Source of the DNA: a virus
IMG/VR virus record: IMGVR_UViG_3300028654_000001
Coordinates: 372,001 to 436,000 of that record
Direction: 5' to 3' (one strand)
DNA: 64,000 nt
In this document: piece after piece, positions 2,601 to 55,626 of the stretch
How positions within the stretch are numbered: the first letter of the stretch is position 1
Layout: every line of letters starts with the position of its first letter
Position numbers and translations under genes: made by a program
The notes under the pieces: generated by a model
Seen by the model: the letters and a program-made list of their open reading frames with translations, nothing else
Database searches by the model: none
Told to the model about the DNA's origin: nothing

Positions 2601-3950
2601 TCAGTAATTAGAGTTCTCCCAAGCCTTTGTTCTACCCCTCAACTGTCTCTCTTCTGGGATGTTGGGTTTGTCCATAATCTCAGTTGGAGATCCGAACTCA
2701 GGTCCTTGAGGTCTGAATTGAACAGCCACAAACTTGATTGGGTTTGCAACAGGTACCTTGTATCGAATATCCTTCTCGTCGAAGCACCCAATGGTAAAAT
2801 GTTGCTGGAGCAGCATCCCTCGATTGGTGGGCATCCGCACCGGGCCGATACTGTAGCGATCCCCATTGATCTTGAGTAAAAAGTCCCTGTGACTCAGGAT
2901 TGGTTGTGGACCAGTCCACACTTCATAGGAGTGTTCGACTGTCCTGCCAATATCCCTCTGGGCAATCTTCACATCGGCATCATCCGGAGCAATGATGATC
3001 TCGTAGGGACCCTCATAACCCCCAAGGACCCCAGTTCCAAAACAGAAGGTGCAGTCCGAAATGGGTTGTTTATGGGTTTGGTCATAACACAGACACGGGA
3101 GACCGACTACTTTTCGTAAATAAGCTCGAACCCGTTCACCACCCTGTTCAAGAATCCACCTGTTTCTCCTGATCGCCTCCCTCCAATAATTGTCTAACTT
3201 CTCGATCTCAAAGTTATTGGTGGCTGATGCACTCTCAAGAGGAGTCTCAATGAGGTTATCAGGATTAGTCTCATCCCAAGTGTGGCTTGCTGGGATCCCA
3301 ACAGTTGTAACCCTATAGAAGATTCGTTGTTTTAGGTCAGTCTTGAGTAGATCCCTCTTAAATCGATAGGCACAAGTAACACGACTAGTACTTGTAGGAA
3401 CTACAGGAAGAATCCTCTGCTGGTGAGCGGTGTCCGTATAGATGTTGGCATCAATCTCAACCTCCCCCGTCTGCCCATTTACAGCCAAGACCCTCACCTG
3501 AACCCCATCGACGAATACCATTACATCTTGAGTATTCTTTGTCGGAACCCCTCGAGAGGCTTCACCAACAATCGGATAGTTCAAAGTCTTGAAGACGTAC
3601 CGAGGACCATCCATGCCCGTACTGGCCTCACCGAAGAGGATAAACTGACGAGTTACATCCTCTTCCGGTACGAGCTCGTTGTCAGTCTGATCCCTCCAAA
3701 ACTTAGCCCCTACTGGAAGATCAGTAATTCGATGATAGGGCCCGAATTCAGAGTCAAAGCTACGATAAACGTTGACCCCGAGAATCTTAAACCGACTATT
3801 CAGAGTCAGATAGGCAGGGTCATCCCAAAGAAGATCAATAACTCCAACCTCCCCACCTCTCATGAACAGATTCAGAGGTGGGGCCGGCCACGGAAGCTTG
3901 TTCAACTCAACAAGCTGTGGATTCCTATCTCGGTTGCTTACGTCCGCCAT
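2601..3950 (-). CDS. Structural protein with CxC/CxxC zinc-finger-like insert
   Basis: This 449-residue protein is beta-rich over its first 240 residues, with a segment resembling a fibronectin/Ig fold (LGVNVYRSFDSEFGPY). A helical segment follows (WREAIRRNRWILEQGGERVR). Near residues 285-310 the cysteine motif CLCYD...CTFCFGTG resembles the CxxCxGxG elements of DnaJ-type zinc fingers. The C-terminal part is again beta-rich. The gene belongs to the structural cluster, and a GAGG element precedes the ATG. The exact virion part is not known. The cysteines probably bind a metal that stabilises the fold. Confidence 0.75.
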   Translation of the reverse strand: MADVSNRDRNPQLVELNKLPWPAPPLNLFMRGGEVGVIDLLWDDPAYLTLNSRFKILGVNVYRSFDSEFGPYHRITDLPVGAKFWRDQTDNELVPEEDVTRQFILFGEASTGMDGPRYVFKTLNYPIVGEASRGVPTKNTQDVMVFVDGVQVRVLAVNGQTGEVEIDANIYTDTAHQQRILPVVPTSTSRVTCAYRFKRDLLKTDLKQRIFYRVTTVGIPASHTWDETNPDNLIETPLESASATNNFEIEKLDNYWREAIRRNRWILEQGGERVRAYLRKVVGLPCLCYDQTHKQPISDCTFCFGTGVLGGYEGPYEIIIAPDDADVKIAQRDIGRTVEHSYEVWTGPQPILSHRDFLLKINGDRYSIGPVRMPTNRGMLLQQHFTIGCFDEKDIRYKVPVANPIKFVAVQFRPQGPEFGSPTEIMDKPNIPEERQLRGRTKAWENSNY

Positions 3951-3975: not shown

Positions 3976-3996
3976 ATAAAGGGAAAAACCCTTTAT
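3976..3996 (-). terminator. Short hairpin between genes
   Basis: An 8-bp perfect inverted repeat (ATAAAGGG and CCCTTTAT) with a five-A loop lies just after the gene at 4018-4407 and before the gene starting at 3950. There is no strong T-tract, so it may be a weak terminator or a processing site. Confidence 0.4.
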
Positions 3997-4017
3997 ACGG
4001 ACACACTCAGAATGGGA

Positions 4018-4407
4018 TCAGTTGCCAGGGGCCCCCTTGGCTGCTTGAGCCTGATTAGACGCAAGCTGAGCTTGAAGAGCTGCTTGAGCTTGAGATGCTG
4101 CTTGTTGATTGAAGGCCTCCATGGCCTCTTCAACTGGCTTCACAGCCCCAGTCTTCGCATCAATCTCTACAGGGTAGTTAGTTGGAAGACCCCGAGATAT
4201 AAGGACACCCTCGAACAACCTCTGGCGCTCAGCCTCAATATTGGAAGCTGCTCGCATGAGACGAATCTTGTCCTGTTCCAAACTCAGGAGGCTGTCAGCA
4301 ACTTGAAGTCTTGAGGACTGAAGTTGTTGAAACTTCCTGAGTGTCTCCGCGTCAACTGGATCTGCTATGGTTAATTTTGGCTGATTTGATTCGGTCTGAT
4401 CACTCAT
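4018..4407 (-). CDS. Hypothetical alanine/glutamine-rich helical protein
   Basis: This 129-residue protein is mostly helical. Residues 20-75 look like a coiled coil (Leu, Gln, Arg and Glu in heptad-like spacing). The C-terminal 35 residues are very rich in Ala and Gln. It resembles small accessory or chaperone-like structural proteins of phages, but no family is recognised. Hairpin DNA follows its stop codon. Confidence 0.7.
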   Translation of the reverse strand: MSDQTESNQPKLTIADPVDAETLRKFQQLQSSRLQVADSLLSLEQDKIRLMRAASNIEAERQRLFEGVLISRGLPTNYPVEIDAKTGAVKPVEEAMEAFNQQAASQAQAALQAQLASNQAQAAKGAPGN

Positions 4408-4464
4408 TTGAGCTGTCTCCGTGAAATGGGGAGTACGCGTACTAAGCTATCGGTGATAAAAGGA

Positions 4465-4680
4465 TCAATCAGGGCAGCCAGCACAGCCCCTTCGAATAAC
4501 GTAGGAGAGTGATGGGCCACTATCAGGTATCAAGTTGAGTGTCCCATGAGAGAAGTTCGCCTTGATGATCTTAGCCCCTCTTCTATCAAGTATGGCCGTA
4601 CCCTCATTGATAGCCGTAAAGCACCGACCCATGTCCTCAGGAGACATGACATCATTACACTCGAAAGGAACCCCGAACAC
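4465..4680 (-). CDS. Small hypothetical protein (GTG start)
   Basis: This 71-codon frame begins at a GTG directly after an in-frame TAG (4681-4683), so it continues the reading frame of the endonuclease-like remnant upstream. It encodes a small protein with three Cys residues (one in the N-terminal part and CAGC near the end). No good ribosome binding site is visible. It could be a short real gene starting at this GTG or at an ATG 11 codons in, or part of a decayed mobile gene. Evidence is only moderate. Confidence 0.45.
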   Translation of the reverse strand: MFGVPFECNDVMSPEDMGRCFTAINEGTAILDRRGAKIIKANFSHGTLNLIPDSGPSLSYVIRRGCAGCPD

Positions 4681-4842
4681 CTAGGTGGATACACCGAGGA
4701 AGGCTTTGATTCTCGCTTGAGTCTCAACAGGGGCCTTCTTCACCTCTGATTCCCATACCACTAAGCACTCAATTCCAATCTCTGCAAAGGCAACTACCAA
4801 CTCAGACTCATGCTCGAAGTTAGCCAGAAAACCGCCGCTAAC
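4681..4842 (-). pseudogene. Remnant of a homing-endonuclease C-terminus
   Basis: This 53-codon open stretch has no ATG and starts after a TGA. It reads ...ELVVAFAEIGIECLVVWESE and ends with an amphipathic RIKAFL segment. The pattern of hydrophobic strand, LVVWE, then a helix ending in a bulky residue pair is the usual C-terminus of Vsr/DUF559-like and related phage endonucleases. It lies directly after the fractured intein locus and has no nuclease core, so I read it as a decayed mobile gene. The only possible start is a TTG at 4800, giving 39 residues. Confidence 0.4.
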
Positions 4843-5476
4843 TCACCCCCAGGAATTTTGCCGGGGCGAGCACCCCTCTACCGACGTACGGGCCGAAACT
4901 AGACCGGATGCCCGACCCGTAGCGAGGTTGCTGCAAGCCTCGGATGATCTTCACAGTAGCCTTGGCTCTTTCAAGCTGGGCGGTGAATTGATCGATCAAG
5001 CTCTGTTTCATATCACTGTACTTAGCAGACTTCTCAAGATCCAAAGAAACACCTCCAATCGAGTAGCTATTGTGGGCCAAGATCCCATTCGCCAGTACGA
5101 AGTTCTCAGGACCGGGAACAGATAAATCATACATAAAAGGTCTAGAGAGCGCCTCTCTAACCCCAAGAATTAGCTCTTTACCTAGGAGGTCTCCTTGAAC
5201 CACAGCTATGGGTTCACGATCTTCAAACTTATTTGAGGGCTTTGCTACAGGGAGGAGACCCCTCATTGAAAACAAACTATGGTCTGTTGTAACAATAACC
5301 TGTCTTCCATCCAGTAAGGTAACTTGAACGCAATCTTTCTCACTAGAGGGATGCTTAAGGATTGCAGTAACCTTTGACTTAGTAACACGCCCAGTAGGGG
5401 TAACTGATCTAACCCGCAGTAGACCAGCCTGAAAAGCACTCTTGATTGCGGACCTAACTTCCGGTTTCATAGACAC
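4838..5476 (-). CDS. Split-intein C-terminal half plus C-extein of structural protein
   Basis: This 212-residue protein has two parts. Residues 1-136 are the C-terminal piece of a Hint/intein domain. It shows block B (T63-x-x-H66 in TTDHSLF), a block F-like strand region, and block G ending NGILAHN at N136, followed by Ser137 as the +1 nucleophile. Residues 137-212 (SYSIGGVSLDLEK...) are the C-extein and fit as the continuation of the product encoded at 6435-7196. No splicing start is encoded here, so function requires trans-splicing with the partner. The 5' end overlaps the endonuclease gene by 23 bp, which suggests coupled translation. Confidence 0.85.
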   Translation of the reverse strand: MSMKPEVRSAIKSAFQAGLLRVRSVTPTGRVTKSKVTAILKHPSSEKDCVQVTLLDGRQVIVTTDHSLFSMRGLLPVAKPSNKFEDREPIAVVQGDLLGKELILGVREALSRPFMYDLSVPGPENFVLANGILAHNSYSIGGVSLDLEKSAKYSDMKQSLIDQFTAQLERAKATVKIIRGLQQPRYGSGIRSSFGPYVGRGVLAPAKFLGVS

Positions 5477-6533
5477 CTCGCAAGGTCACAAGAAGGTCTC
5501 TGACCCTATCAACCCAAACAGAAAAGTCACCTGAATCATGCTCAGGAACCCTAAGAAGAGTCCAACCATGGTTCAGTAGATAGGTGGTCTTTCGTTTGTC
5601 CAACTTTGCAATATCAGGATTAGCTGTAAGACCGCAGATAGAACACCCATGCCAGTAACAACCATCAACCTCTATAGCCAGCTTTAGTTCAGAGAATGCT
5701 TCGTCAATATGGTAATAACCCACTCTGAACTCTCGTTGAAACCCATGAACACCAGCTTCAACTAAAGCCGCTTCAAACCTCTGATGGAGTTTAGAGAAAG
5801 TTCTCCTGATAAACCCACGAGCCTTAGCAGCAGATTCCCGTATCTCACCCCGGTGCTCTTTTTGATATAAGGCCTGCTTAGCTACAAAATCAGGATCTTT
5901 CCAGAGCTTAGCACTTCGCTCTCCTACTCTCATACGTGCCTCAGGGGTTTTATTATACTGAGTCAAATGAAGGGTAGCCCTTTCACGATAACCTGAGTCT
6001 TGCATCCGACGAGAAGCTTCAGCTATCTGATTCCGCGTCTTTTTCCCCTCAGGCGTTTGAAACCTAAGTTTAAGAGTTTCAGCTTGCGCTATCTTCTGAG
6101 CTTCAGTCTTCTTTTTTTTAGCACGAGTAACTGATGAAGTTAGAGCAGCATTTGGCCACTTTTCCTGGTATTGGCTGAGTGTCAAACCGGAACAGGACTT
6201 TAGATGCTTAGTAGAGATACTTGCTTGTTTTCCTCTACACTCAAGGCAAGTAACGAAGTGCTCACCTTCTATAAGATTACTTAGACTACTCTCTACAATT
6301 GCTGACCCGACAGAACCAGAGCTAACTAATACCCCAGCCGATACTAGGTTGATCAATGCACGTTGATTCATTCCAAACTGAGTAGTTACACTCAATCTTG
6401 ACCTACAACCGATTGGAACCCTAAAACCAGCCATTTAAGAACCATAACATATATCGTACAGGTCCGCTATAGTTACATCGACTTCTTGACCCTCAGGTAA
6501 GATTACACGAACCTCAGTCTCAGGAGCAATCGA
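5069..6533 (-). mobile_element. Fractured-gene insertion: split intein with free-standing endonuclease gene
   Basis: The element comprises the intein N-part (6438-6533, 32 residues from Ser222), the endonuclease gene (5454-6434) and the intein C-part (5069-5476, 136 residues). The three frames are separate: the N-part stops with TAA just before the ATG of the nuclease, and the nuclease overlaps the C-part. Removing the element joins ...NWIADEF to SYSIGG... and restores one protein of 297 residues. The arrangement matches the fractured genes with split inteins and Vsr-like nucleases reported from metagenomic phage sequence. The short N-part resembles atypically split inteins such as AceL-TerL. 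Confidence 0.85.
5454..6434 (-). CDS. Vsr-like (EDxHD-type) homing endonuclease, free-standing
   Basis: This 326-residue protein probably cuts intein-free alleles of the host gene and so spreads the split intein. Residues 56-95 look like a MucR/Ros-type zinc finger (C63, C66, H77, C81, then LTLSQYQEKW). Residues 100-210 are basic repeated helical units like NUMOD DNA-binding segments. Residues 213-325 carry the Vsr/DUF559-like nuclease core: LAIEVDGCYWHGC around D257, W261 and H262, then a helix and GWTLLRVPEHD. The gene sits exactly between the two intein halves and is translationally linked to both. Confidence 0.8.
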   Translation of the reverse strand: MAGFRVPIGCRSRLSVTTQFGMNQRALINLVSAGVLVSSGSVGSAIVESSLSNLIEGEHFVTCLECRGKQASISTKHLKSCSGLTLSQYQEKWPNAALTSSVTRAKKKKTEAQKIAQAETLKLRFQTPEGKKTRNQIAEASRRMQDSGYRERATLHLTQYNKTPEARMRVGERSAKLWKDPDFVAKQALYQKEHRGEIRESAAKARGFIRRTFSKLHQRFEAALVEAGVHGFQREFRVGYYHIDEAFSELKLAIEVDGCYWHGCSICGLTANPDIAKLDKRKTTYLLNHGWTLLRVPEHDSGDFSVWVDRVRDLLVTLRGVYETGS

Positions 6534-7196
6534 GAACTCATCCGCGATCCAATTACTTTGAAGCATTTGAACAGCAAAAGACATGGCGGCAGTGAGAAGT
6601 AAGGTCTTCCACTCACTCTTCATCTGGACCATGTGGTCGACATCTTGGAAGAACGTCCTCGGTGGGGCGGCAATGATCATGTCTAGACCTTCGTCTAGAC
6701 ATTCGATGAGCTCCTCATCTTCCCAGATGTACCCGAATACACGACTGAACTGGTCAACAGTTTGCTCGTGGGCTGGGGGCCTAAATTTGTAGTTCTTGTC
6801 GGGATTGTTGTCTCGGGTGAGGATCCTCATTCTCCTTACCAACTCCATCTGTATCGCAGTATGACAGCTAGGGGTACTCGACTCTCTATCAGCAACATTG
6901 AACTCCTGTAGAGCCGTCTGAATAGGTCCACCCACCATTTCTCGGATAGTCCACCTAACTCGATAGTCTCCAAGGTTGGCATCCAGAGGTACCACAATGT
7001 TGGCAAAGTACTCGCCAACTGAAGCATTCACTGGAATCCGTCGTAGAGGGCCTACTAGAACCTCGAGGCCGGTTGTATTGTCATAGACGGCATAGTTGAT
7101 CTCAGCTGCATTGATCGGATGCCCTGAGGCGTTGGTAAGAAATACATTCAGGTCATTCCTACCTAGTTGTTGCCCGCGATAGAATAGAGTTCCCAT
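6435..7196 (-). CDS. Structural protein N-extein ending in split-intein N-terminal piece
   Basis: This 253-residue protein has two parts. Residues 1-221 are the N-extein. It contains a beta-sandwich-like segment (residues 5-100, related to the protein at 7200-7667) and then a helical region. Residues 222-253 start with Ser and read SIAPETEVRVILPEGQEVDV, which fits intein block A, and then the frame stops. Joining F221 to Ser137 of the gene at 4838 gives a continuous structural protein. Without trans-splicing this product would be truncated and would carry an intein tail. The virion role is inferred from the neighbouring genes. Confidence 0.8.
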   Translation of the reverse strand: MGTLFYRGQQLGRNDLNVFLTNASGHPINAAEINYAVYDNTTGLEVLVGPLRRIPVNASVGEYFANIVVPLDANLGDYRVRWTIREMVGGPIQTALQEFNVADRESSTPSCHTAIQMELVRRMRILTRDNNPDKNYKFRPPAHEQTVDQFSRVFGYIWEDEELIECLDEGLDMIIAAPPRTFFQDVDHMVQMKSEWKTLLLTAAMSFAVQMLQSNWIADEFSIAPETEVRVILPEGQEVDVTIADLYDICYGS

Positions 7197-7199
7197 GGT

Positions 7200-7667
7200 C
7201 TAAAACCTTCTCCCGCCACAACAGTGATACCCAGGCCCCCACTCCCGCTCGAGCCACTCCCGTTCCCCATGGTGATGCCCATCTGGTCTACAAGGGTTGT
7301 GGTGGAACTCAGCTGGACTGAATACCTCGAACCCAAATCGATCTTCTTGCAGTGGGCCCTCGAAGTACTCCTGAAACACCCATTCTACATACCACTGACC
7401 AGACTGCCCACCCTCACCAGCATACCCAGTAGCGTAGTACTCACCTATATCAGCTTGAACAGGCATCCTATGGCATGGAAATACCTTGATTAAGTGACTG
7501 CAATGAGGGCCATGATGTTCCCGAGGCTTAGGGTGATACAGCAAAGTATACTTGATGCTGTAAGGGCTAAAAGGAGACCCAGCCCCATCAACAATGTAGA
7601 TCGGTAGATCACCACGTTGAAATAGATGGCCACACTTGAACACACCAGGGCTTGATTTAACAATCAC
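7200..7667 (-). CDS. Structural protein, Ig-like module, His-rich C-terminus
   Basis: This 155-residue protein is related to the start of the adjacent gene: both share a pattern of LF-R-G, then G-x-P, then VGEYY/VGEYF and a later W-x-V/I-x-W stretch. The C-terminal 40 residues are unusual, with many His, Cys, Arg and Trp (for example DGHHHGEREW), which could bind metal. It lies 3 bp from the upstream stop and so belongs to the structural operon. The precise virion role is unknown. Confidence 0.7.
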   Translation of the reverse strand: MIVKSSPGVFKCGHLFQRGDLPIYIVDGAGSPFSPYSIKYTLLYHPKPREHHGPHCSHLIKVFPCHRMPVQADIGEYYATGYAGEGGQSGQWYVEWVFQEYFEGPLQEDRFGFEVFSPAEFHHNPCRPDGHHHGEREWLEREWGPGYHCCGGRRF

Positions 7668-9276: not shown

Positions 9277-9561
9277 TTAGGCTGCCTGAGACACCCCAGG
9301 GATCACTGGTTTGATGAACTTAGCCATCACAAACACCGGACGATCCTTCTTCCGAGAGTTGCAATACTTGCAACAGGAGATCACATTGTCCTGCGTATTA
9401 GAACCACCTAGCTTAATGGAAACCAGATGATCAAATGTCTCTTTCTGATTAGAGGCATACTGAGCTGTAGTCAGAGGCTTTCGACAAGCATTACACACAG
9501 GATAGAGACCATCAGGGCGACTGCTATCCTTGTGAAGGTCAGTTGTTTGGTTTTTGGCCAC
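9277..9561 (-). CDS. HNH endonuclease
   Basis: This 94-residue protein shows a compact HNH (His-Asn-His) nuclease: C23-x-x-C26 (PVCNACRKP), the D44-H45 catalytic pair in TFDHLVSIKLGG, N59 in DNVISCC, and the C64-x-x-C67 zinc knuckle ending in CNSRKK. Free-standing HNH genes between structural genes are typical phage selfish nucleases; some act in packaging. Both flanking genes belong to the fibre block. Target specificity is unknown. Confidence 0.85.
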   Translation of the reverse strand: MAKNQTTDLHKDSSRPDGLYPVCNACRKPLTTAQYASNQKETFDHLVSIKLGGSNTQDNVISCCKYCNSRKKDRPVFVMAKFIKPVIPGVSQAA

Positions 9562-12455: not shown

Positions 12456-15400
12456 ATGACTATCGCTGGTATCAAAGTTCTCATAGTTGGAAAACAATTC
12501 GAACTCCCATATGACGTTGTTAATCTAGAGGGTACAGCACACCTACTCGAAACAATTGCCACTTTTAGGCCGGACGTTATAGTCACCTCAGACTACATAC
12601 CTGGATCTCTTACTATGGCTTGTTACGATCTCAGGAAGAGGTGGATCCATATACCCCCTGATGTATCAAATAAAGAACTTTGCGCAAATATTGAGAGTTG
12701 CTACTCTTTCAACATTTGGACAGAGCAGGAGTTTTCAAAAGACCACCCTATGGTCTCGGTCTACACCCCAACCCATGACACTGGAGATTACCTGCAAGAT
12801 ACCTTTCAGTCACTAAGAAGTCAGACCTATGTGAACTGGGAATGGATCGTTGTAGACGACCAATCCTCTGACAAGACCTGGGCTAGACTTCAAGAATTTG
12901 CAGCTCAGGATTACCGGATTAGACCTTTTCAAAGTGGAATACACCTAGGAAAGATCGGAGCTCTCAAAGATCTGACAACCAGACTGTGCAGGGGGAAGTA
13001 CTTAGTTGAGTTAGATCATGACGACATGCTTACGGAAACCGCTCTTGAAGAGGTGAAAAACACCTTCGAGGCCAACCCAGATGTTGGCATGGTCTACACA
13101 AATAGCGCATCATTCTATGAGAACGGGTCCCCTCAACGCTTTAATGGATCCCCTTGGGATGCTCCTGATAGGTATCGTGAAGTCGAGTACCACGGACGAA
13201 AGTATTTAGAGTGCAGCAATCCAAATATTTATGACCGCTTTGGACCTCACTTCACTCAAGTGTTCGGCTGGTTCCTCACGGTAGGCCCTCATCACATCAG
13301 AGCCTTTCGTGCAGAGACCTTTCGTCAACTAGGAGGCTACAACCCAGAGCTCCCCATCGCCGATGATTGGGACCTGTATGCTAGGTTCTTCCTGGAATCC
13401 AAGTGCTTTCACTTGGATAAGCTCCTGTACTTGTACCGATATCGAGACGGATTTGGAAATGTAACGTTCCAACGTCTCCAGTCTATCCAGGATCATTTAG
13501 CCCTAGGCCGAAACCACTATATGGATAAGTTCAAGAATAAGAACGATGAGTTACTAGCTAATCACCCACCCATGGTTCCTAATCCTATCTCAACAAGTGT
13601 TGGAGAGAAGAGCACGTCTGCTGATCTATCCTTCGTTGTCCTTGATGCCACGGGAAGCCAGAATGCCATTGATTGCTTGAAAAGCTTGAGATATTATGCC
13701 CCTGATGCGGAGATCATACTTGTTGAGAACGGTTGTAGGTCAAAAGCTAGCAATGAGGCCAACATAGTTCTTGAGAGTTCTCACAATCTGGGTTTTGGCG
13801 GGGGGTGCAACCTAGGAGCCTGTGCGGCCAATCGTCCGTATCTGTGCTTCATTAATGATGACGCGGTACTCGTGGACACAGTGACCGTCCCGAAGCTTCT
13901 AGACGCTGCCAAGAAAAACTCCATAGCTGGGAGCTACTCGGACAGAGCAAAGCCCCCCCAAGGTGACTGGTCCCATGACTCAGTCCCAAAGGATGACAAG
14001 GCCCTGCCCATGGTAGCCGGGCTCTGCATGGTATTGTCCAAGAGCCTGTTTGACTCCCTAGGTGGTTTTGACCCAAGGTTCATGACGTGGGAAGACGACG
14101 ACTTTTGTGTTAGGGCTGGACGCCTTGGGGTGACCAGCGTGGCTGTAGGAGGGGCCTTCGTACACCACAAGGGCCACCGGACCTTCGAAACTATGAAGTT
14201 GGACCATGTAGCAGTCGAAGCTGAGAACCAGAGACTCTTCAGAGTGAAACACCAGAAGATCAAGGTCATCGCCATTGCCAAGAATGAGGAAAATTGCATT
14301 GTCGAGTTCTTCAAGCAGTTCGAGTCAATCACGAGTAGTTGGTACATGCTTGACACGGGGTCGACGGATAGGACTGTTGAATTAGCCAAGTCTATTGGAG
14401 TAGAGGTAGTCAAAGGTCCATTCACAGACTTTGCAACTACTCGTAACCAAGCTTTGAAGCTATTTGACTCAGAAAATAGCTGGGTCATCATGCTCGACCC
14501 CGACGAACGTTTGGACAAGCGCACCATTGAAGCTATCCCCGAGCTGATCTTCAACAGGCGTATCGTCTCACAGAGCGTATTTGATACCTATCTTGCTCCT
14601 TTGACTGCTGTCTATCCGGATGGGAATAGGAAAGAGTTCGTGGCCAAGCCCTTCCTGTTCAAGAACAACCCTACTTCTAGATGGGTCTTCAAAGTTCATG
14701 AGAAGTGGATCACTAAGGATCATTGCTCGAACTATGGTCAGTGCGCGATAGTCACCAATGCACTCATCGAGCATAGGATTGAGTTTCACACGGGCAAGCA
14801 TCGTGATGGAGCTGAAGGATTGTACTCCAGGTTGATGTCAGAAGAGCCCTACTTTCAAGACTTGGACTACAAGACCCGGATGCGCGAGGAGTTCCCAATA
14901 CTTGACTATGACCGCACTGAGGATCCACGAATAACCAAGATACAAGCAGGGCCCTTAGTCAGCGTAGTGATCCCTACTTACAAGCGAACAGACCTCTTGA
15001 GGAAAGCAGTACTATCCGCTCTGACTCAATCCTACAAGACTCTGGAAGTCATCATTGTTGGAGATCACTGTCCAGAACTGGATTCAGCTGCATTCGGAGA
15101 ATGGCCCTACTCAGAAGAACCTCGAGTTAGAGTTGTCAACTTGGCAAAGAATTACGGAGCTGGTGGTGCAGAGCCTAGAAACGTAGCAATCAATCTAGCC
15201 GCTGGGCCCTACATCGCCTATTTGGACGATGACAACACCTGGGCAAAGGACCACGTGAGCAACTTACTGACTACCATCTTGGCTGAGAACAGTATCTGGG
15301 GTTGGTCGTCGATGATGGTGAACGGGATTGATATGGTGTTTGACCGATTAGAGAAAGGCAAGATCGATACCTCGTGTGTCATTCACCACAAGAGTCTCAT

Positions 15401-16217
15401 ACTAAAACACGGTGGGTGGAAGCCCCGAACCGAAGCGAACTACTGGCATGACTACGAGCTGTTCTCACGTTGGAGAGAGGAGCCTCAAACGGTAACCAGG
15501 TACCCGTCAGTTAACTATAATGCTAGTGCTTCGGGCCAAGGAGCTTTTCTGGCTAGTCTGACCTCTTCAGATCGAGTCACCGACATCCCATTTGAACCCC
15601 TAACTTCCATACCATCAGAACCAAACCTCTTGACCATTGGTATTCTCAGTTTGGAGTTCCGAGCTGAAATGCTAAATAAGTTGCTACAAGAGCTAGAGAG
15701 TCAAAGAAGTGCCCTCCCCTTTCCTGACTCAGTAAGAATCGTAAAAGTGGATACTAGAGAGGCCACTGTTGGTGAAAAACGACAGAAGATCATAAATGAA
15801 TGCAGTACTGAGTATCTATGCTTCGTAGATGACAATGACATGATTGAGCACAATTACCTAAGCTCAATCCTACGAGCTCTCAAAGACAATCCAGACTGTG
15901 TAACCTTCAAAGGCATAATCACCACGGACAGTAAGAACCCAGAGCTATTCCGCTTATCCTTGCATTACTCAATAGGGGCTTGGTCCAAAGATGTTCAGGG
16001 AACTCACATGCGAACCCCCAATCATCTATGTCCAATGAAGGTTAAGTTAATGAGGAGAGTGGCTTATCAGGACATCACTTCATATGAGGATGCTCTCTGG
16101 GGTATGTGGATCTACCCACTATTACACAGCCAGTGTCACATTGACGAAGTTCTTTACCACTACCAGTACAGCCCAACTGGGTCTGAAGCAGCTAAGAAAG
16201 CACCAAAGCTCATGTGA
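12456..16217 (+). CDS. Five-module GT-A glycosyltransferase (family 2-like)
   Basis: This 1253-residue protein has five tandem GT-A-like domains, each with a nucleotide-binding beta strand and an Asp-rich sugar-nucleotide/metal motif. Module 1 is 98-340 (MVSVYTPTHD, ELDHDD at 185-190). Module 2 is 391-598 (INDDA at 466-470, plus EDDDF). Module 3 is 601-790 (AIAKNEENC, LDPDER at 680-685). Module 4 is 833-1010 (VSVVIPTYKR, LDDDN at 923-927). Module 5 is 1056-1250 (FVDDND at 1123-1128). An N-terminal segment 1-95 resembles a short Rossmann-like fold. It probably transfers sugars to virion, host-surface or nucleic-acid acceptors; the substrate is not identifiable. Confidence 0.85.
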   Translation: MTIAGIKVLIVGKQFELPYDVVNLEGTAHLLETIATFRPDVIVTSDYIPGSLTMACYDLRKRWIHIPPDVSNKELCANIESCYSFNIWTEQEFSKDHPMVSVYTPTHDTGDYLQDTFQSLRSQTYVNWEWIVVDDQSSDKTWARLQEFAAQDYRIRPFQSGIHLGKIGALKDLTTRLCRGKYLVELDHDDMLTETALEEVKNTFEANPDVGMVYTNSASFYENGSPQRFNGSPWDAPDRYREVEYHGRKYLECSNPNIYDRFGPHFTQVFGWFLTVGPHHIRAFRAETFRQLGGYNPELPIADDWDLYARFFLESKCFHLDKLLYLYRYRDGFGNVTFQRLQSIQDHLALGRNHYMDKFKNKNDELLANHPPMVPNPISTSVGEKSTSADLSFVVLDATGSQNAIDCLKSLRYYAPDAEIILVENGCRSKASNEANIVLESSHNLGFGGGCNLGACAANRPYLCFINDDAVLVDTVTVPKLLDAAKKNSIAGSYSDRAKPPQGDWSHDSVPKDDKALPMVAGLCMVLSKSLFDSLGGFDPRFMTWEDDDFCVRAGRLGVTSVAVGGAFVHHKGHRTFETMKLDHVAVEAENQRLFRVKHQKIKVIAIAKNEENCIVEFFKQFESITSSWYMLDTGSTDRTVELAKSIGVEVVKGPFTDFATTRNQALKLFDSENSWVIMLDPDERLDKRTIEAIPELIFNRRIVSQSVFDTYLAPLTAVYPDGNRKEFVAKPFLFKNNPTSRWVFKVHEKWITKDHCSNYGQCAIVTNALIEHRIEFHTGKHRDGAEGLYSRLMSEEPYFQDLDYKTRMREEFPILDYDRTEDPRITKIQAGPLVSVVIPTYKRTDLLRKAVLSALTQSYKTLEVIIVGDHCPELDSAAFGEWPYSEEPRVRVVNLAKNYGAGGAEPRNVAINLAAGPYIAYLDDDNTWAKDHVSNLLTTILAENSIWGWSSMMVNGIDMVFDRLEKGKIDTSCVIHHKSLILKHGGWKPRTEANYWHDYELFSRWREEPQTVTRYPSVNYNASASGQGAFLASLTSSDRVTDIPFEPLTSIPSEPNLLTIGILSLEFRAEMLNKLLQELESQRSALPFPDSVRIVKVDTREATVGEKRQKIINECSTEYLCFVDDNDMIEHNYLSSILRALKDNPDCVTFKGIITTDSKNPELFRLSLHYSIGAWSKDVQGTHMRTPNHLCPMKVKLMRRVAYQDITSYEDALWGMWIYPLLHSQCHIDEVLYHYQYSPTGSEAAKKAPKLM

Positions 16218-28109: not shown

Positions 28110-30416
28110 TCAGGTCTTCTTATAACAGCCGTTCAACGTCAGCCGTGTGGTCTTTGAAATAGTCTCAATCCCAAACTTATGACGAAGTTTCCTAATGGCT
28201 ACTTTAGATACGCTATAAAGTTTAGCGATCTGGTCATCACTATTGCGAAGGTATAGGTCTGAAAGAACATCCTTGGTCAACGAATCAAAAGAAAGGCTCC
28301 CAGAGGCCTTGGCACTTCTCTGGGTAAAGCTAATTGTTTGGATCCCCCACCGCTTTCGCTGCTGAGAGATCAAAACATCCGAAGTCCCGAATCTCTTACC
28401 GATCTCAGCATCAGTCATTAATTGGGCCTCGTACAACTCTCTCAAAGCGGCCTCAGTCAACCCAGATACCTTGGTATCACAGGTCTCTTTCTTATTGGGC
28501 TCTTTTGGTAGTTGGTAACAAGGAACCAAACACGTCCCCCCACCCTTCAGAAAGACTAAAATAGGTTCCATTCTATGATGACTACCGAAAGAGCCAAGCT
28601 TCATCTCAAGAGTACCCTCATACTCAAACCCGCACAGCTCGGCCATTCTAATTGACTCACTAACCAAAGGCAGTTGGGATCCATCAACTTGGATATCAGC
28701 CACATTAAGTAGCAGTCTTCCACCTGGGGCCAGACTGTTGAAGGACTTAGCTAGTAGTACAGAGAGAAATCTACTCAACCATAGATCCCAAGTTGGGTAA
28801 CGAACCCAACTCTGAGATGGATCATTGGAGTACCGCTCAACAGAAAAGTACGGAGGGCTAGTGAGAACCAAGTCAGCCTGAATATCACCTAGGTCTACCT
28901 CCTCAATTGGTTGATTGAAGAAAGTTAGGTTGACTCCTAGTAAATCCTGCAACTTTTGAAAAGACTCCCCAGCCTTCGGGTGAGGATCAACCCCAATATA
29001 TCGACGACCTGCTGCCAAAGCTCCGACAGCCCTACCCCCATATCCAGCACAGGGATCCAACACTAAACCACCAACTGAGGAGAAGTCCTCTACCAACCTC
29101 TTAGCAATAGCTGGTCTAAAGTTGGAAGGGGTTCGTACTATAGCTCGAAGTGCTCGAAATACATTCATTGGATACAGAGGGTCCCCAACTTTCAATTGGA
29201 AGTCTACAGCTCTTCGAATCAAGGCGGGGTCAAACCAAGCCCTAGTAAGAGATGGATTCTGTCCGTTGGTCGCTTCAAATCTATGTGGGAAGGCGGCCTG
29301 ACATACTGCTAACCCTACTCGACCACCCCCCTCAATCACCCCGTCACTTACTTTCGCCAAGGTTCTATGGCGTAGATTAGTGAAGTCCCTAACAACCTCA
29401 TCGTCAGAAGGCGGCTCTGGTAGCTTGAGTGAGGTTAGCAACTCAATCAAGGGTTCACCTTGCAACCCAGAATCTACGATACCTTTTGCTTCTTCCCAGG
29501 TAGGAATATACTTCGAGGTGTCTATTACAAAACCTGAACTTTTAACCGATCTTCGTACGGTATCGACCGAAGACCCTGTTGCCTGAGAAATCCACTCTAA
29601 GGATCGACCTTGCTCAACATAGTCACCAAGTTGATCCCTTAGTAAGTCAGCCGAAGATAGACCCCTAGCCCTGGGCACTAGTTCCAACTTATAGCCCATT
29701 GAAGGGGGGATATGAGGGGCTACCAAGTCCAAGAACCTGGTAAGGCTCTCACGATCGTGCAGCCATATATCAGCATCGTTAGTCTTGTAGAGTACAGGTA
29801 CGAGCCCAAACCGTTTCAGGAGTTCGAGTTGAACTTGTTGATCCTCGGGCCTTGGTGAAACAGAAAACCTAACATACCCGTTGGAGGTTTTTGAGCCATC
29901 ATCCAAGAACCAAATGGCCAAAGAGAAGGCATCAAACTCCGCAAGATCTATGTTGGAGAAGGACTTGTTCCCAGAACCATCAGGGTAGGCTTGCTTCCAA
30001 TAGGGGTATAAGTCCCTGGAACTATGCAGAGTCAGGCGAGATCCTGTATAGGTAACCCCATTCTTCACCGTCTTAGCTGGTTTGACTGAGCAAAGATGAT
30101 CGCCCCAAAGGGCGGCTTTCCAAGAGATGTAGTCATGCTGTTGGTCCGAGTGGTATTCACAGAGGCTTGCTGTGCAATCACTGCGAGAGGTGAGCCCAGC
30201 ATCTCCGAGTAGAGAGCCCAAGAGGAGAGTCTTCTGTAGTTGGGTCAGGGGCGGCAACTTCAAACGATCCGACTTTTGAATAGTCTGGATCTGGTACTTC
30301 ATTCTTCGTAGACTCACCTGCCTCTGACTCAACCCATACAACAAACCAATCTTGATCTCGGATAACCCATCATCCAGGTAAAGCCTGCGAAGTTCGGCTT
30401 CAGTGACGTCTGCCAT
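28110..30416 (-). CDS. LAGLIDADG endonuclease-DNA methyltransferase fusion
   Basis: This 768-residue protein has several domains: an N-terminal HTH module (5-50); a LAGLIDADG nuclease with motifs LLLGSLLGDAG (64-74) and SLAIWFLDDGS (165-175); an HTH-like segment (275-300); and an amino-methyltransferase core with motif I LDPCAGYGG (453-461), GVDP (475-478) and the catalytic TSPPY at 519-523. The last is typical of N4-cytosine or N6-adenine DNA methylation. Two C-terminal HTH modules (653-700, 713-758) repeat the N-terminal one. One protein could thus cut unmodified target DNA and methylate its own site. Confidence 0.8.
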   Translation of the reverse strand: MADVTEAELRRLYLDDGLSEIKIGLLYGLSQRQVSLRRMKYQIQTIQKSDRLKLPPLTQLQKTLLLGSLLGDAGLTSRSDCTASLCEYHSDQQHDYISWKAALWGDHLCSVKPAKTVKNGVTYTGSRLTLHSSRDLYPYWKQAYPDGSGNKSFSNIDLAEFDAFSLAIWFLDDGSKTSNGYVRFSVSPRPEDQQVQLELLKRFGLVPVLYKTNDADIWLHDRESLTRFLDLVAPHIPPSMGYKLELVPRARGLSSADLLRDQLGDYVEQGRSLEWISQATGSSVDTVRRSVKSSGFVIDTSKYIPTWEEAKGIVDSGLQGEPLIELLTSLKLPEPPSDDEVVRDFTNLRHRTLAKVSDGVIEGGGRVGLAVCQAAFPHRFEATNGQNPSLTRAWFDPALIRRAVDFQLKVGDPLYPMNVFRALRAIVRTPSNFRPAIAKRLVEDFSSVGGLVLDPCAGYGGRAVGALAAGRRYIGVDPHPKAGESFQKLQDLLGVNLTFFNQPIEEVDLGDIQADLVLTSPPYFSVERYSNDPSQSWVRYPTWDLWLSRFLSVLLAKSFNSLAPGGRLLLNVADIQVDGSQLPLVSESIRMAELCGFEYEGTLEMKLGSFGSHHRMEPILVFLKGGGTCLVPCYQLPKEPNKKETCDTKVSGLTEAALRELYEAQLMTDAEIGKRFGTSDVLISQQRKRWGIQTISFTQRSAKASGSLSFDSLTKDVLSDLYLRNSDDQIAKLYSVSKVAIRKLRHKFGIETISKTTRLTLNGCYKKT

Positions 30417-52322: not shown

Positions 52323-54194
52323 TCAGCCAGTTTTGGAGAATCCTGGACCGTGTTGTGGGAAGAAAGAACCCATAATTGACTCAGGTTGGATTGAGCACTC
52401 TCTTAGTGAGTTAATAGCCGCGTCGTAATCAGCAGACGCCTCAGTGATTGGACATTCAACATCCTCACATAGAGCCATCAACTTTAGATTCAAACGAGCT
52501 TGCGTCTCAAAAGCACGGATCTTATCATACTGGGCGGTAGTGATACCTGCCAGATTTGAAGAGTATACGCCGTCTAGTGATTCGTAGTTATTCAAGAGTG
52601 ATGCAATCACTTTCCGGGGTATCCTAGCTACTCCGGGCAGGTTGTCTGAGTCATCGCCGATGAATGCTCGCAAGTGGATCATCTTACGAGGAGCGACCCC
52701 ATACTCTAGCACAACCTTGTCAGGGTCGTACAGGGTCTCTGGTCTAGATCCTACCTTGGGAACCAAAACTAAGTCTGTGTATGTGACCAACTGTAAGAAA
52801 TCTCTGTCTGTGGAAACTACGAAGTTGTGAGCTCCTTTCATTTTTACTTTTACTAGGTGAGCTATTAGATCGTCTGTTTCCTCATCGGGGTTATACGCTT
52901 GATTAACCCCAAACGAAGGCAACATACTTCGAAGTCGAAGCATCTCTTCGTGAACCCCTTCAGTGTGAGGCTCCCTAGTTGCCTTGTAATCAGGATAGTC
53001 CTTAACCCTACGTTGCCGAGACCCATCCCACACAACATAGATGTTTGCCTGACTGAAACGTTTTTTGAGAGCAGCAACACTTCGAAGGAATCCAAAAATG
53101 ATTGAGGTTGGACGCCCCTCACTGTCTATAAGTGATCCACCCTGAACGAACCTCAAAGCCTTTTCGGACCTGTAGGCTAGGTTATGCCCGTCGAAAATTA
53201 GATTCTGTACCATACTAGGTTCCCAATCCGGAATAGAACGCTCAATAACCTCAACAGATTCCTGAATCTTATGCAGTCGATCGAAAACAGTCTGAAGGTA
53301 TGCTAGCTGTAGCTCTTTATTATCGAGAGGAGTCATATCCTCTCGCTCGGTAGTGATCCTATACTTGTGAAATATACCCTTGCCCCTATCAAGGAAAGAG
53401 CAGATCTGCTGGTACTTCTGGTATTTTTCTGACAGTGACACCCCGTTCTCATCTATAATTCTATCAGAGGGGGAGGCCGAATCAGTTACAAGTCTAAGAA
53501 GTCGCCTGCCGCTAGAACACCACTTGTCTAACTGCACTATATTACTGAACTTAGTGGAAACTGTATTGATATTTGGGGTCCTACACTCTACGATGGGTGT
53601 AACTTTTCGTGTCCAATCTCTGATTCTGGTAACCTTCGTAATGAAGGGGGAGTGAAAGTACTGCTCATCATCTCCACTTCTTGGAATGTACCTCAATGAG
53701 GTACGCGGTAGAGTCAGCAAGGACTTCTTAGATCTGAGGTTTATGAATACCTGAACGCTACCTGTCTCAGGTATATCCTCAATGACGCGCCCCCTGAGGT
53801 TCTTGTATGGCTCGCTCATGATTACCACATCATCCCCAACCTCGATACCCTGCTCGGTCTCGATGTGGATCTGACGTCTCATCCGATCGATATCCTTGTC
53901 ATAGACACAAGCTAATCTACGAGATATACTGCTAGTAACCGTTAAAACAGAGGATATATATCGAGTACCCTCCATCTTGAGAAACTCAGCATCAGTTAGG
54001 TCACGCCTAACGAACACATAATTGTCAATCAGCTTGTGAACAACACGGGATCCACCAGGAACCTTTACTACCGAAGCGGGGATGAAGAACTCCTTACCCT
54101 TAACCATTCGATTAAGGGACTTATGAAGAACATCAGGGTCTTCATCCTCACCTTGAGGGTTTAGCTCTAGTACTACCCATTCAGTTGTTGCCAC
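52323..54194 (-). CDS. NusG-like (NGN-KOW) fused to FEN/FLAP nuclease
   Basis: This 623-residue protein starts at the GTG at 54194, 5 bases after GGAAGAGG; the longer frame to 54284 would overlap the clamp-loader gene too far. Residues 3-105 have the NGN-type fold of NusG (TEWVVLELN, IDNYVFVRRD) and residues 117-145 a KOW-like VGDDVVIMSEPYKNLRGRV. From about 330 is a FLAP/5' nuclease: IFDGHNLAYR (Asp335), VWDGSR, DEETDDLI, STDRDFLQL and IGDDSDNLPGV hold the acidic cluster. Such a nuclease removes RNA primers and flaps. Confidence 0.8.
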   Translation of the reverse strand: MATTEWVVLELNPQGEDEDPDVLHKSLNRMVKGKEFFIPASVVKVPGGSRVVHKLIDNYVFVRRDLTDAEFLKMEGTRYISSVLTVTSSISRRLACVYDKDIDRMRRQIHIETEQGIEVGDDVVIMSEPYKNLRGRVIEDIPETGSVQVFINLRSKKSLLTLPRTSLRYIPRSGDDEQYFHSPFITKVTRIRDWTRKVTPIVECRTPNINTVSTKFSNIVQLDKWCSSGRRLLRLVTDSASPSDRIIDENGVSLSEKYQKYQQICSFLDRGKGIFHKYRITTEREDMTPLDNKELQLAYLQTVFDRLHKIQESVEVIERSIPDWEPSMVQNLIFDGHNLAYRSEKALRFVQGGSLIDSEGRPTSIIFGFLRSVAALKKRFSQANIYVVWDGSRQRRVKDYPDYKATREPHTEGVHEEMLRLRSMLPSFGVNQAYNPDEETDDLIAHLVKVKMKGAHNFVVSTDRDFLQLVTYTDLVLVPKVGSRPETLYDPDKVVLEYGVAPRKMIHLRAFIGDDSDNLPGVARIPRKVIASLLNNYESLDGVYSSNLAGITTAQYDKIRAFETQARLNLKLMALCEDVECPITEASADYDAAINSLRECSIQPESIMGSFFPQHGPGFSKTG

Positions 54195-55626
54195 CAGCAC
54201 CTCTTCCAATCCAGATTCCTTCAAACTCCCTACGCCAATCGGATGGTGGGATGGGAGCTCTTCCATCCCTTGACTTAGTGTCAAAACTGATCGGTTTCTG
54301 CTTCCTACTCTGAGTAGGAAGTTCTTCAGGGATCACAGCCGTGTCATTCTCTGTAAGGGCCTGCATATCTCTTGAACCTAAGTTACCTTTCCCATCCTTC
54401 CGTAGCCCCTCCATGTCTTGTTCAATCGGAGGCGGGACTAAAGTTGTAGTTCTGATGGGTTTGGTTACTTCTACAGTAGGTTCTATAGGAGTGACATTTG
54501 GTTGTGTTTGTGGGGTAGCTGTTTGGACGAAAGTACTGACTGCGATAGTTTGGGTTACTTCTTGTTGGACTTGACGAGTAATAGGCCCTGACCTAAGTCT
54601 TTGATTCAGGGTGGTTATATCACAGATTAGTCCGATCTGTGTTGTATAGCGAGATTTGAGGAAGTGCTCTGCAATAGAAGTTAATCCAGTGCTGTACAGC
54701 TCACTGACTTTTGCGCTAAGTTCTTTGTCTGCGAATGTAAAATCAGCATTCATACCGTTAGCAAGACGAAATGAATTCATTGCAGCCTCAGCAAGACCTG
54801 AAGCTGCTTCCTCAGGGGTGATTCGCTCGCAGACAGAATCAACTAGAGATAGTGCTTGCTTGAGATTAGAGGGTATGTTGAGTAGGATCTCGTAATAAGT
54901 GCTAACTACGGAAAGGTTAAGGTGTTCCCTGACATTAGCCACCTTAACAGGACCCACCTGGGCTATCATCTCCAAGCGGTTCACCACATCTCGTACGTGA
55001 CCCCCAGAGAAGTCTATTACTATGAGTATGGCATCATCCTCATACTCGACCTTCTCCGCTTCAAGGATCCGTTTCATGCGGACAAGGATGTCTTCTCGAG
55101 TCACCCGACGTATCGAATACTCCTCGCACCTAGAGCGAATAGCACCACGAACCTTCTCAGGTTCAGTAGTGCAGAACATACCAAGCATCTTCCTCTCTTC
55201 AAGAGGTTTCAGAAGAACGTCTTGGGCATCCTTCGACATACGATGGCATTCATCGAATAGATAGATCCTCTTCGCTGCCCCCATCACCGTAAATGGTAGC
55301 TCATCGACGATCCTTCTAATTTGTTCTATGTTACCCTGACTAGCTGCATCCTGCTCCACGAAAACCATGGAAGTGTCATTCAAGATCGATAGACAACTCT
55401 CACACGTGTTACACGGTTCTGGGTTATTCTTATCCAGGTTGTGGCAGAGCATTGCCCGTGCAAAGATTCTTGCGAGAGTTGTCTTACCTTGCCCAGATCC
55501 ACCACTGAATATGTAACTAGTGTCGAGAGCGGTCCCGTTCCTCAACCTCGCTTTAAGGAGTTGAACAGTCCCGGTCTGACCTAGTACATCAGAGAAAATC
55601 AAAGGACGATGAGAGGTGTCCCACAT
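54181..55626 (-). CDS. dnaX: DNA polymerase III clamp-loader subunit (gamma/tau type)
   Basis: This 481-residue AAA+ clamp loader has Walker A GGSGQGKTT (42-50), a zinc site of Cys61, 72, 75 and 78, Walker B IYLFDEC (121-127), sensor-type CTTE near 152, and the SRC arginine finger (165-167). It opens and loads the clamp made by the dnaN-like gene upstream. The C-terminal part beyond about residue 350 is Pro/Thr-rich. It is followed by the NusG-FEN gene with a short overlap. Confidence 0.85.
   Translation of the reverse strand: MWDTSHRPLIFSDVLGQTGTVQLLKARLRNGTALDTSYIFSGGSGQGKTTLARIFARAMLCHNLDKNNPEPCNTCESCLSILNDTSMVFVEQDAASQGNIEQIRRIVDELPFTVMGAAKRIYLFDECHRMSKDAQDVLLKPLEERKMLGMFCTTEPEKVRGAIRSRCEEYSIRRVTREDILVRMKRILEAEKVEYEDDAILIVIDFSGGHVRDVVNRLEMIAQVGPVKVANVREHLNLSVVSTYYEILLNIPSNLKQALSLVDSVCERITPEEAASGLAEAAMNSFRLANGMNADFTFADKELSAKVSELYSTGLTSIAEHFLKSRYTTQIGLICDITTLNQRLRSGPITRQVQQEVTQTIAVSTFVQTATPQTQPNVTPIEPTVEVTKPIRTTTLVPPPIEQDMEGLRKDGKGNLGSRDMQALTENDTAVIPEELPTQSRKQKPISFDTKSRDGRAPIPPSDWRREFEGIWIGRGAGGNN

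Follow-up and report, generated by a model that had tools for sequence, protein, structure and literature searches.

A probable mobile split-intein element in a connector-like gene of a giant phage, with a putative homing nuclease between the intein halves

How does a giant phage come to encode one head-to-tail connector protein in two separate genes? The question is raised by a 64,000-nucleotide stretch, hereafter the window, of a 512,571-bp phage record (IMG/VR record IMGVR_UViG_3300028654_000001, positions 372,001 to 436,000), in which three open reading frames (ORFs) adjoin one another on the minus strand at 7196-6435 (253 residues), 6434-5454 (326 residues) and 5476-4838. The ATG of the middle ORF abuts the stop codon of the first (TAAATG), and the likeliest start of the third is the ATG at 5470, inside the 3′ end of the middle ORF. 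A first-pass annotation had described this region, 4838-7196, as a fractured structural gene in three linked parts: an N-extein with the N-part of a split intein (IntN), a free-standing nuclease gene, and an intein C-part (IntC) with the C-extein. The ORFs are arranged as described, and the same three-part layout occurs at the same codon in 15 distinct loci, so the arrangement is not due to chance. We consider it very probable that the locus holds a mobile split-intein element within a head-tail connector-like gene, that the connector is produced by splicing, and that the gene between the halves encodes a probable homing nuclease.

The joined exteins form a continuous protein of 297 residues, as had been claimed. 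A search for an unbroken homologue across the junction, which the annotation had proposed, recovered one in a related locus, L003 (relatives carry L numbers throughout), with 82% identity over residues 1-296; further full-length unbroken homologues share 47-50% identity. The cultured Tunturiibacter phage Tunturi_5 encodes a protein annotated "head-tail connector" that is 26.6% identical over 93% of the length, and the head-tail connector family PHROG 17327 (phrog_17327) matches three of ten unbroken relatives, with a best E value of 4e-4. No second connector copy was found in the 512,571-bp record, where the only similarity besides the two halves themselves was a 31% match, in the neighbouring gene (7200-7667, minus strand), to the connector N-terminal domain, apparently through a paralogous domain. 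Given the connector homology, the single copy, and the head maturation protease and portal genes elsewhere in the window, the host gene is likely to encode a virion head-tail connector, consistent with the structural gene first proposed, although the name rests on weak similarity. The terminase family PF03237 was searched for in the phage record and not found. A scan with the unbroken connector covered the best 80 of 269 relatives, ranked by score; this sample is biased and holds no inteins, so occupancy cannot be derived from it. Apparent matches of 1.2-1.3 kb in that scan were joins with the upstream paralogous domain, not inteins.

The first-pass annotation placed a split intein here, with a 32-residue N-part beginning at Ser222 and a C-part ending in NGILAHN and followed by Ser. 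The Pfam profile Intein_splicing agrees, scoring 39.9 bits on the C-part alone and 44.2 bits on the IntN-IntC concatenate (cut-off 35.8), and NCBIfam intein_Cterm matches at 1.7e-8. When 15 related IntC parts were combined into a profile and compared with solved inteins, the best matches were the TFIIB intein (5o9i, 5o9j) and PI-PkoII, with PolB16 matching more weakly (3e-4). The insertion codon, which we call site b, is common to 22 alleles including the window. Ser1 is present in all 22, and each of the 21 alleles with a visible C-part has Ser or Thr at +1, T..H in motif N3, the motif-NX His and a terminal HN; the motif-NX His is preceded by K or R in 17 of these 21. Tails of 31-57 residues homologous to IntN occur in 18 other split alleles, and the ratio of nonsynonymous to synonymous substitution rates (dN/dS) of IntC is 0.06-0.23. 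Motif NX has been described as specific to Ser1 inteins, with its His tied to cysteine-independent inteins (PMC10189870). The window intein combines Ser1, Ser+1 and this His, which suggests oxyester chemistry; it holds two cysteines, neither at catalytic position 1 or +1, and is thus not fully cysteine-less.

The position of the split was placed on a predicted structure of L062, a relative with a contiguous intein. The model has a full HINT fold (mean predicted local distance difference test score, pLDDT, of 79, with the intein region mostly at about 90 or above), and its best solved-structure matches are inteins, including NpuDnaB, Aes123 PolB1 and VidaL. Two strands are followed by a helix at 243-251 and a loop at 252-256, the latter coinciding with the window's split point and preceding another short helix. 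On this model, the window intein is split after helix α1, leaving a short IntN of 32 residues. This is the S2 position, given for AceL-TerL and GOS-TerL (PMC13014065), and it refines the likeness to AceL-TerL noted at first pass.

The nuclease gene between the halves has sequence matches to ROS_MUCR, DUF559 and Vsr that all fall under the curated cut-offs, the ROS_MUCR match of the zinc finger (3.1e-5) just under; the four zinc-finger residues listed in Table 1 are invariant in 17 sequences. An AlphaFold2 model built from the 17-sequence alignment reached a mean pLDDT of 89 and a predicted template-modelling score (pTM) of 0.40, the latter leaving it uncertain how the domains are arranged relative to one another. 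Residues 1-55 may form a helix-turn-helix module. The modelled C-terminal domain matches I-Bth0305I best (3r3p; TM-score 0.80 by target length, E value 2e-4), followed by Vsr, and 3r3p was also matched by a hidden Markov model (HMM) at 2.5e-4. I-Bth0305I is a representative example of the EDxHD homing endonucleases (PMC3943268), and the window nuclease belongs with it in this Vsr-like family, in line with the free-standing Vsr-like endonuclease first proposed. Between related copies dN/dS is 0.13-0.25, indicating purifying selection. Near-full-length relatives were found only at the same codon of the connector gene; in bacterial and archaeal genomes the family was not found beyond one C-terminal match, and deposited phages gave no full-coverage match. 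The protein is probably a homing endonuclease for intein-free connector copies.

Site b occurs in many states. The nuclease lies between the halves in the window, L010 (interrupted by its contig end), L011, L012, L013, L015, L016, L018, L019, L041, L045, L056, L057, L073 and L074. It is fused to IntC in L021, truncated in L065 and reduced to a relic of about 38 residues in the split intein of L063. In L064 the intein is split and lacks a nuclease, with the C-half gene (3995-4621) ahead of the N-half gene (4663-5433); in this swapped order, only trans-splicing can join the halves. The intein is contiguous in L060, L062 and L071. Several relatives carry a stronger AGGAG or GGAGG where the window has its possible ribosome-binding site GAGGTG. 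The N-part of L018 and L019 terminates in ...AAAGAGGAGGGTGAGGAGTAATG and their C-part opens with ...AAAGGAGCGTATGATGGAC, and L071 reads ...AAAGAGGAGCGTATGATGGAT, the nuclease having been lost between two AGGAG repeats, with the former ribosome-binding site and start codons now translated (EERMMD). On the connector tree L071 is nested among nuclease-bearing alleles (98/96, 96/88, 100/99), which favours a re-fusion scar, that is, a change from split to contiguous over the reverse.

The distribution of the intein points to mobility. The window's sister on the connector tree is the intein-free L003 (support 100/100), presence and absence of the intein require at least 10 changes, 7 of them forced by well-supported branches, and presence is clustered no more than shuffled labels. 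Pairwise distances correlate at 0.80 between intein and nuclease, 0.54 between extein and nuclease, and 0.41 between extein and intein. Of 58 distinct intein-free alleles, 41 have Asp at +1 and 5 have Ser or Thr; that this residue is Ser or Thr in 21 of 21 visible intein alleles is expected if the element carries its own +1 codon by co-conversion.

Because of the conserved residues and the relatives, we infer the following steps of splicing. The phage would make two half-proteins, and the 32-residue IntN would dock into the 134-residue IntC, completing the HINT fold. Ser1 would then attack, the N-extein would pass to Ser+1, and the last Asn would cyclise, freeing a seamless 297-residue connector. 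The nuclease, in turn, would cut intein-free connector copies in co-infecting phages, and repair would copy the whole block of IntN, nuclease and IntC together, converting the resident Asp to the Ser+1 that splicing requires. Later the nuclease could decay and be deleted, the intein remaining split or its halves re-fusing. That atypically split inteins in general arise by a free-standing homing nuclease gene settling in the post-α1 loop, off the usual endonuclease site, and that the process is reversible by nuclease deletion, is a proposal for and against which we see an even balance.

Several points weigh against a mobile, splicing element. Trans-splicing, oxyester chemistry, DNA cleavage, homing and the order of the allele states are inferred from sequence. 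The intein-nuclease distance correlation could stem in part from shared vertical descent, and the intein and nuclease trees are both poorly resolved, good support being confined to 3 of 18 inner branches in the former and 4 of 14 in the latter. The connector assignment is weak, given the PHROG 17327 and Tunturi_5 values above, and the phage record may be incomplete. Parts of the element do decay, as the truncated nuclease of L065 and the relic of L063 attest, and such decay would suit a dead gene, in which a nuclease had inserted into a contiguous intein whose halves no longer splice. We regard this as highly improbable, since IntC remains at a low dN/dS, the splicing residues are all retained in visible alleles, the record holds no second connector copy, and split alleles outlast the nuclease (L063, L064).

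Unspliced halves could also serve as two non-covalent subunits in the manner of genes in pieces, for which there is a precedent in a phage ribonucleotide reductase that a homing gene splits into two working polypeptides (PMC10448857). However, each piece bears a conserved part of an intein, and in the relatives L060, L062 and L071 the same gene carries a contiguous intein; we give this explanation very little credence as well. A real split intein might, finally, harbour a nuclease that is a passenger or repair enzyme rather than the homing nuclease for site b; the protein does resemble Vsr repair enzymes, and its cleavage activity is itself a prediction from sequence. This seems unlikely to us, as all near-full-length relatives found sit at the same codon of the connector gene, nuclease and intein distances are correlated, and a homing endonuclease is both the closest solved structure and the model for the multi-domain build.

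Neither fractured genes nor atypically split inteins are new in themselves, and the latter are known mainly as protein-engineering tools. In the fractured genes that Dassa et al. 2009 described (gp41-1, NrdJ-1 and others), mainly from phages, the halves of a split intein reportedly flank a free-standing nuclease gene, often a Vsr-like one; these genes are said to be split at the canonical endonuclease site, with a long IntN, and to lie in genes for DNA-synthesis and repair enzymes. Like them, the split-intein element of the window interrupts its gene and has a free-standing nuclease gene between the halves, but it differs in its 32-residue IntN and its likely virion connector host. AceL-TerL and GOS-TerL share the short IntN and the S2 split after helix α1 (PMC13014065), but are described as cysteine-dependent (GOS-TerL being Ser1/Cys+1), whereas the window intein is Ser1/Ser+1 with motif NX. 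PolB16 OarG shares a natural atypical split, Ser1/Ser+1 and the motif-NX His (PMC10189870) but has a 15-residue IntN and an S1 split after strand β2; its paper mentions no endonuclease (PMC10189870), and it was called in 2026 the sole natural cysteine-less atypically split intein (PMC13014065). I-Bth0305I, which resembles the window nuclease in the fold of its catalytic domain and in its extended architecture of several domains (PMC3943268), was deposited as a mobile intron protein, whereas the window nuclease sits between intein halves and has a MucR-like zinc finger. The PolB of jumbo phage MIJ3 likewise has a split intein starting with Ser and a nuclease gene between the halves, but blocks A to N4 lie in its N-part, a canonical split, and its nuclease is of the HNH type (PMC6892783). 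In a structural study, endonuclease domains within inteins were all at one conserved site (PMC6801210). What is new here is that a split at S2, Ser1/Ser+1 chemistry and a resident nuclease occur together: in literature searches, in which original reports were only partly compared, we found no description of a nuclease gene at an S2 split, of an S2-split Ser1/Ser+1 intein or of a re-fused split intein. One codon presents nearly every state (empty, fractured with nuclease, nuclease decayed, split without nuclease, order swapped, re-fused), so that ideas on how atypical split inteins originate and are lost can be put to the test. The family is also a source of many natural split inteins of the Ser1/Ser+1 kind whose IntN is about 31-43 residues long.

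Six site-b alleles (L012, L015, L018, L063, L071, L073) hold a second split intein about 90 residues upstream, at site a (..LRD. before the insertion point, C.. after it). With inteins at both sites, the connector consists of up to three extein pieces and needs two splicing events; the family supplies natural genes whose product requires two trans-splicing reactions. At site a the inteins have Cys as their first residue, and the motif-NX His is missing. A TnsA-like nuclease gene precedes the IntC of this atypically split site-a intein in L012, L015, L071, L073 and L001, is truncated in L063 and is absent from L018; two members match PF08722 at 1e-9 and 2e-8. Members of this nuclease family were found by a scan at 15 loci, and every one inspected lies at site a of the connector gene. 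Two unrelated nucleases, EDxHD at site b and TnsA-like at site a, have therefore taken up the same place within two related inteins. Searching the literature for TnsA together with homing endonucleases and inteins turned up nothing of relevance. The intein is contiguous at site a in L030 and a few residues beyond it in L009.

Table 1. Coordinates of the split-intein locus in the window and of TnsA-like nuclease genes in relatives
Feature	Position	Strand	Evidence
N-extein, connector residues 1-221	6534..7196	-	79% identity to L003 residues 1-223
IntN, 32 residues, SIAPETEVRVILPEGQEVDVTIADLYDICYGS (Ser1 = connector-ORF S222; two strands and helix α1)	6438..6533	-	homologous tails; L062 fold
Putative homing endonuclease gene, free-standing, 326 residues	5457..6434	-	sequence and structure matches; dN/dS
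Nuclease residues 1-55, predicted small helix-turn-helix-like DNA-binding module	6270..6434	-	AlphaFold2 secondary structure
Nuclease residues 56-100, MucR/ROS-like zinc-finger region	6135..6269	-	Pfam ROS_MUCR; invariant C63, C66, H77, C81
Nuclease residues 215-326, catalytic domain, EDxHD/Vsr-like, core EVDGCYWHGCxxCG	5457..5792	-	3r3p by HMM and fold
Possible ribosome-binding site GAGGTG for C-part, within nuclease gene 3′ end	5474..5479	-	sequence
IntC, 134 residues: motif NX (LKH), N3 (TTDHSLF), C-terminal GILAHN	5069..5470	-	profile matches, allele alignment
Ser+1 codon, opening C-extein residue	5066..5068	-	intein-free alleles mostly Asp here
C-extein, connector residues 222-297, 76 residues	4841..5068	-	85% identity to L003 residues 215-296
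C-extein stop codon	4838-4840	-	sequence
TnsA-like nuclease genes	L001 4688-5728; L071 2349-3221; also L012, L015, L073, L115-L129		PF08722

Other nuclease and intein genes were seen in and around the locus. In L003 an intact DUF7487 nuclease gene (5921-7474) lies directly downstream of the intein-free connector. The window retains a 46-residue C-terminal relic at 4687-4824 (minus strand), 82.6% identical to the L003 copy, and seems to have lost this second nuclease. The window gene at 2601-3950 is uninterrupted; its homologues in L015 (6329-8890) and L056 (5255-7891) hold a large intein. Outside the window, a further intein C-terminal match lies at record positions 292078-292290 (minus strand) within a 990-codon frame, and at 3074-4915 of L075 a different phage gene carries two inteins nearly back to back, with a Vsr-like nuclease ORF after the second. 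The window also encodes, on the minus strand, a small HNH endonuclease ORF of 94 residues (9277-9561), a 768-residue ORF combining LAGLIDADG_2 and N6/N4 DNA methylase domains (28110-30416), and an ORF with a 5′-3′ exonuclease domain and a weak NusG-like N-terminal match (6e-4; 52323-54284). On the plus strand, a 1253-residue protein with four glycosyltransferase-2 stretches is encoded at 12456-16217.
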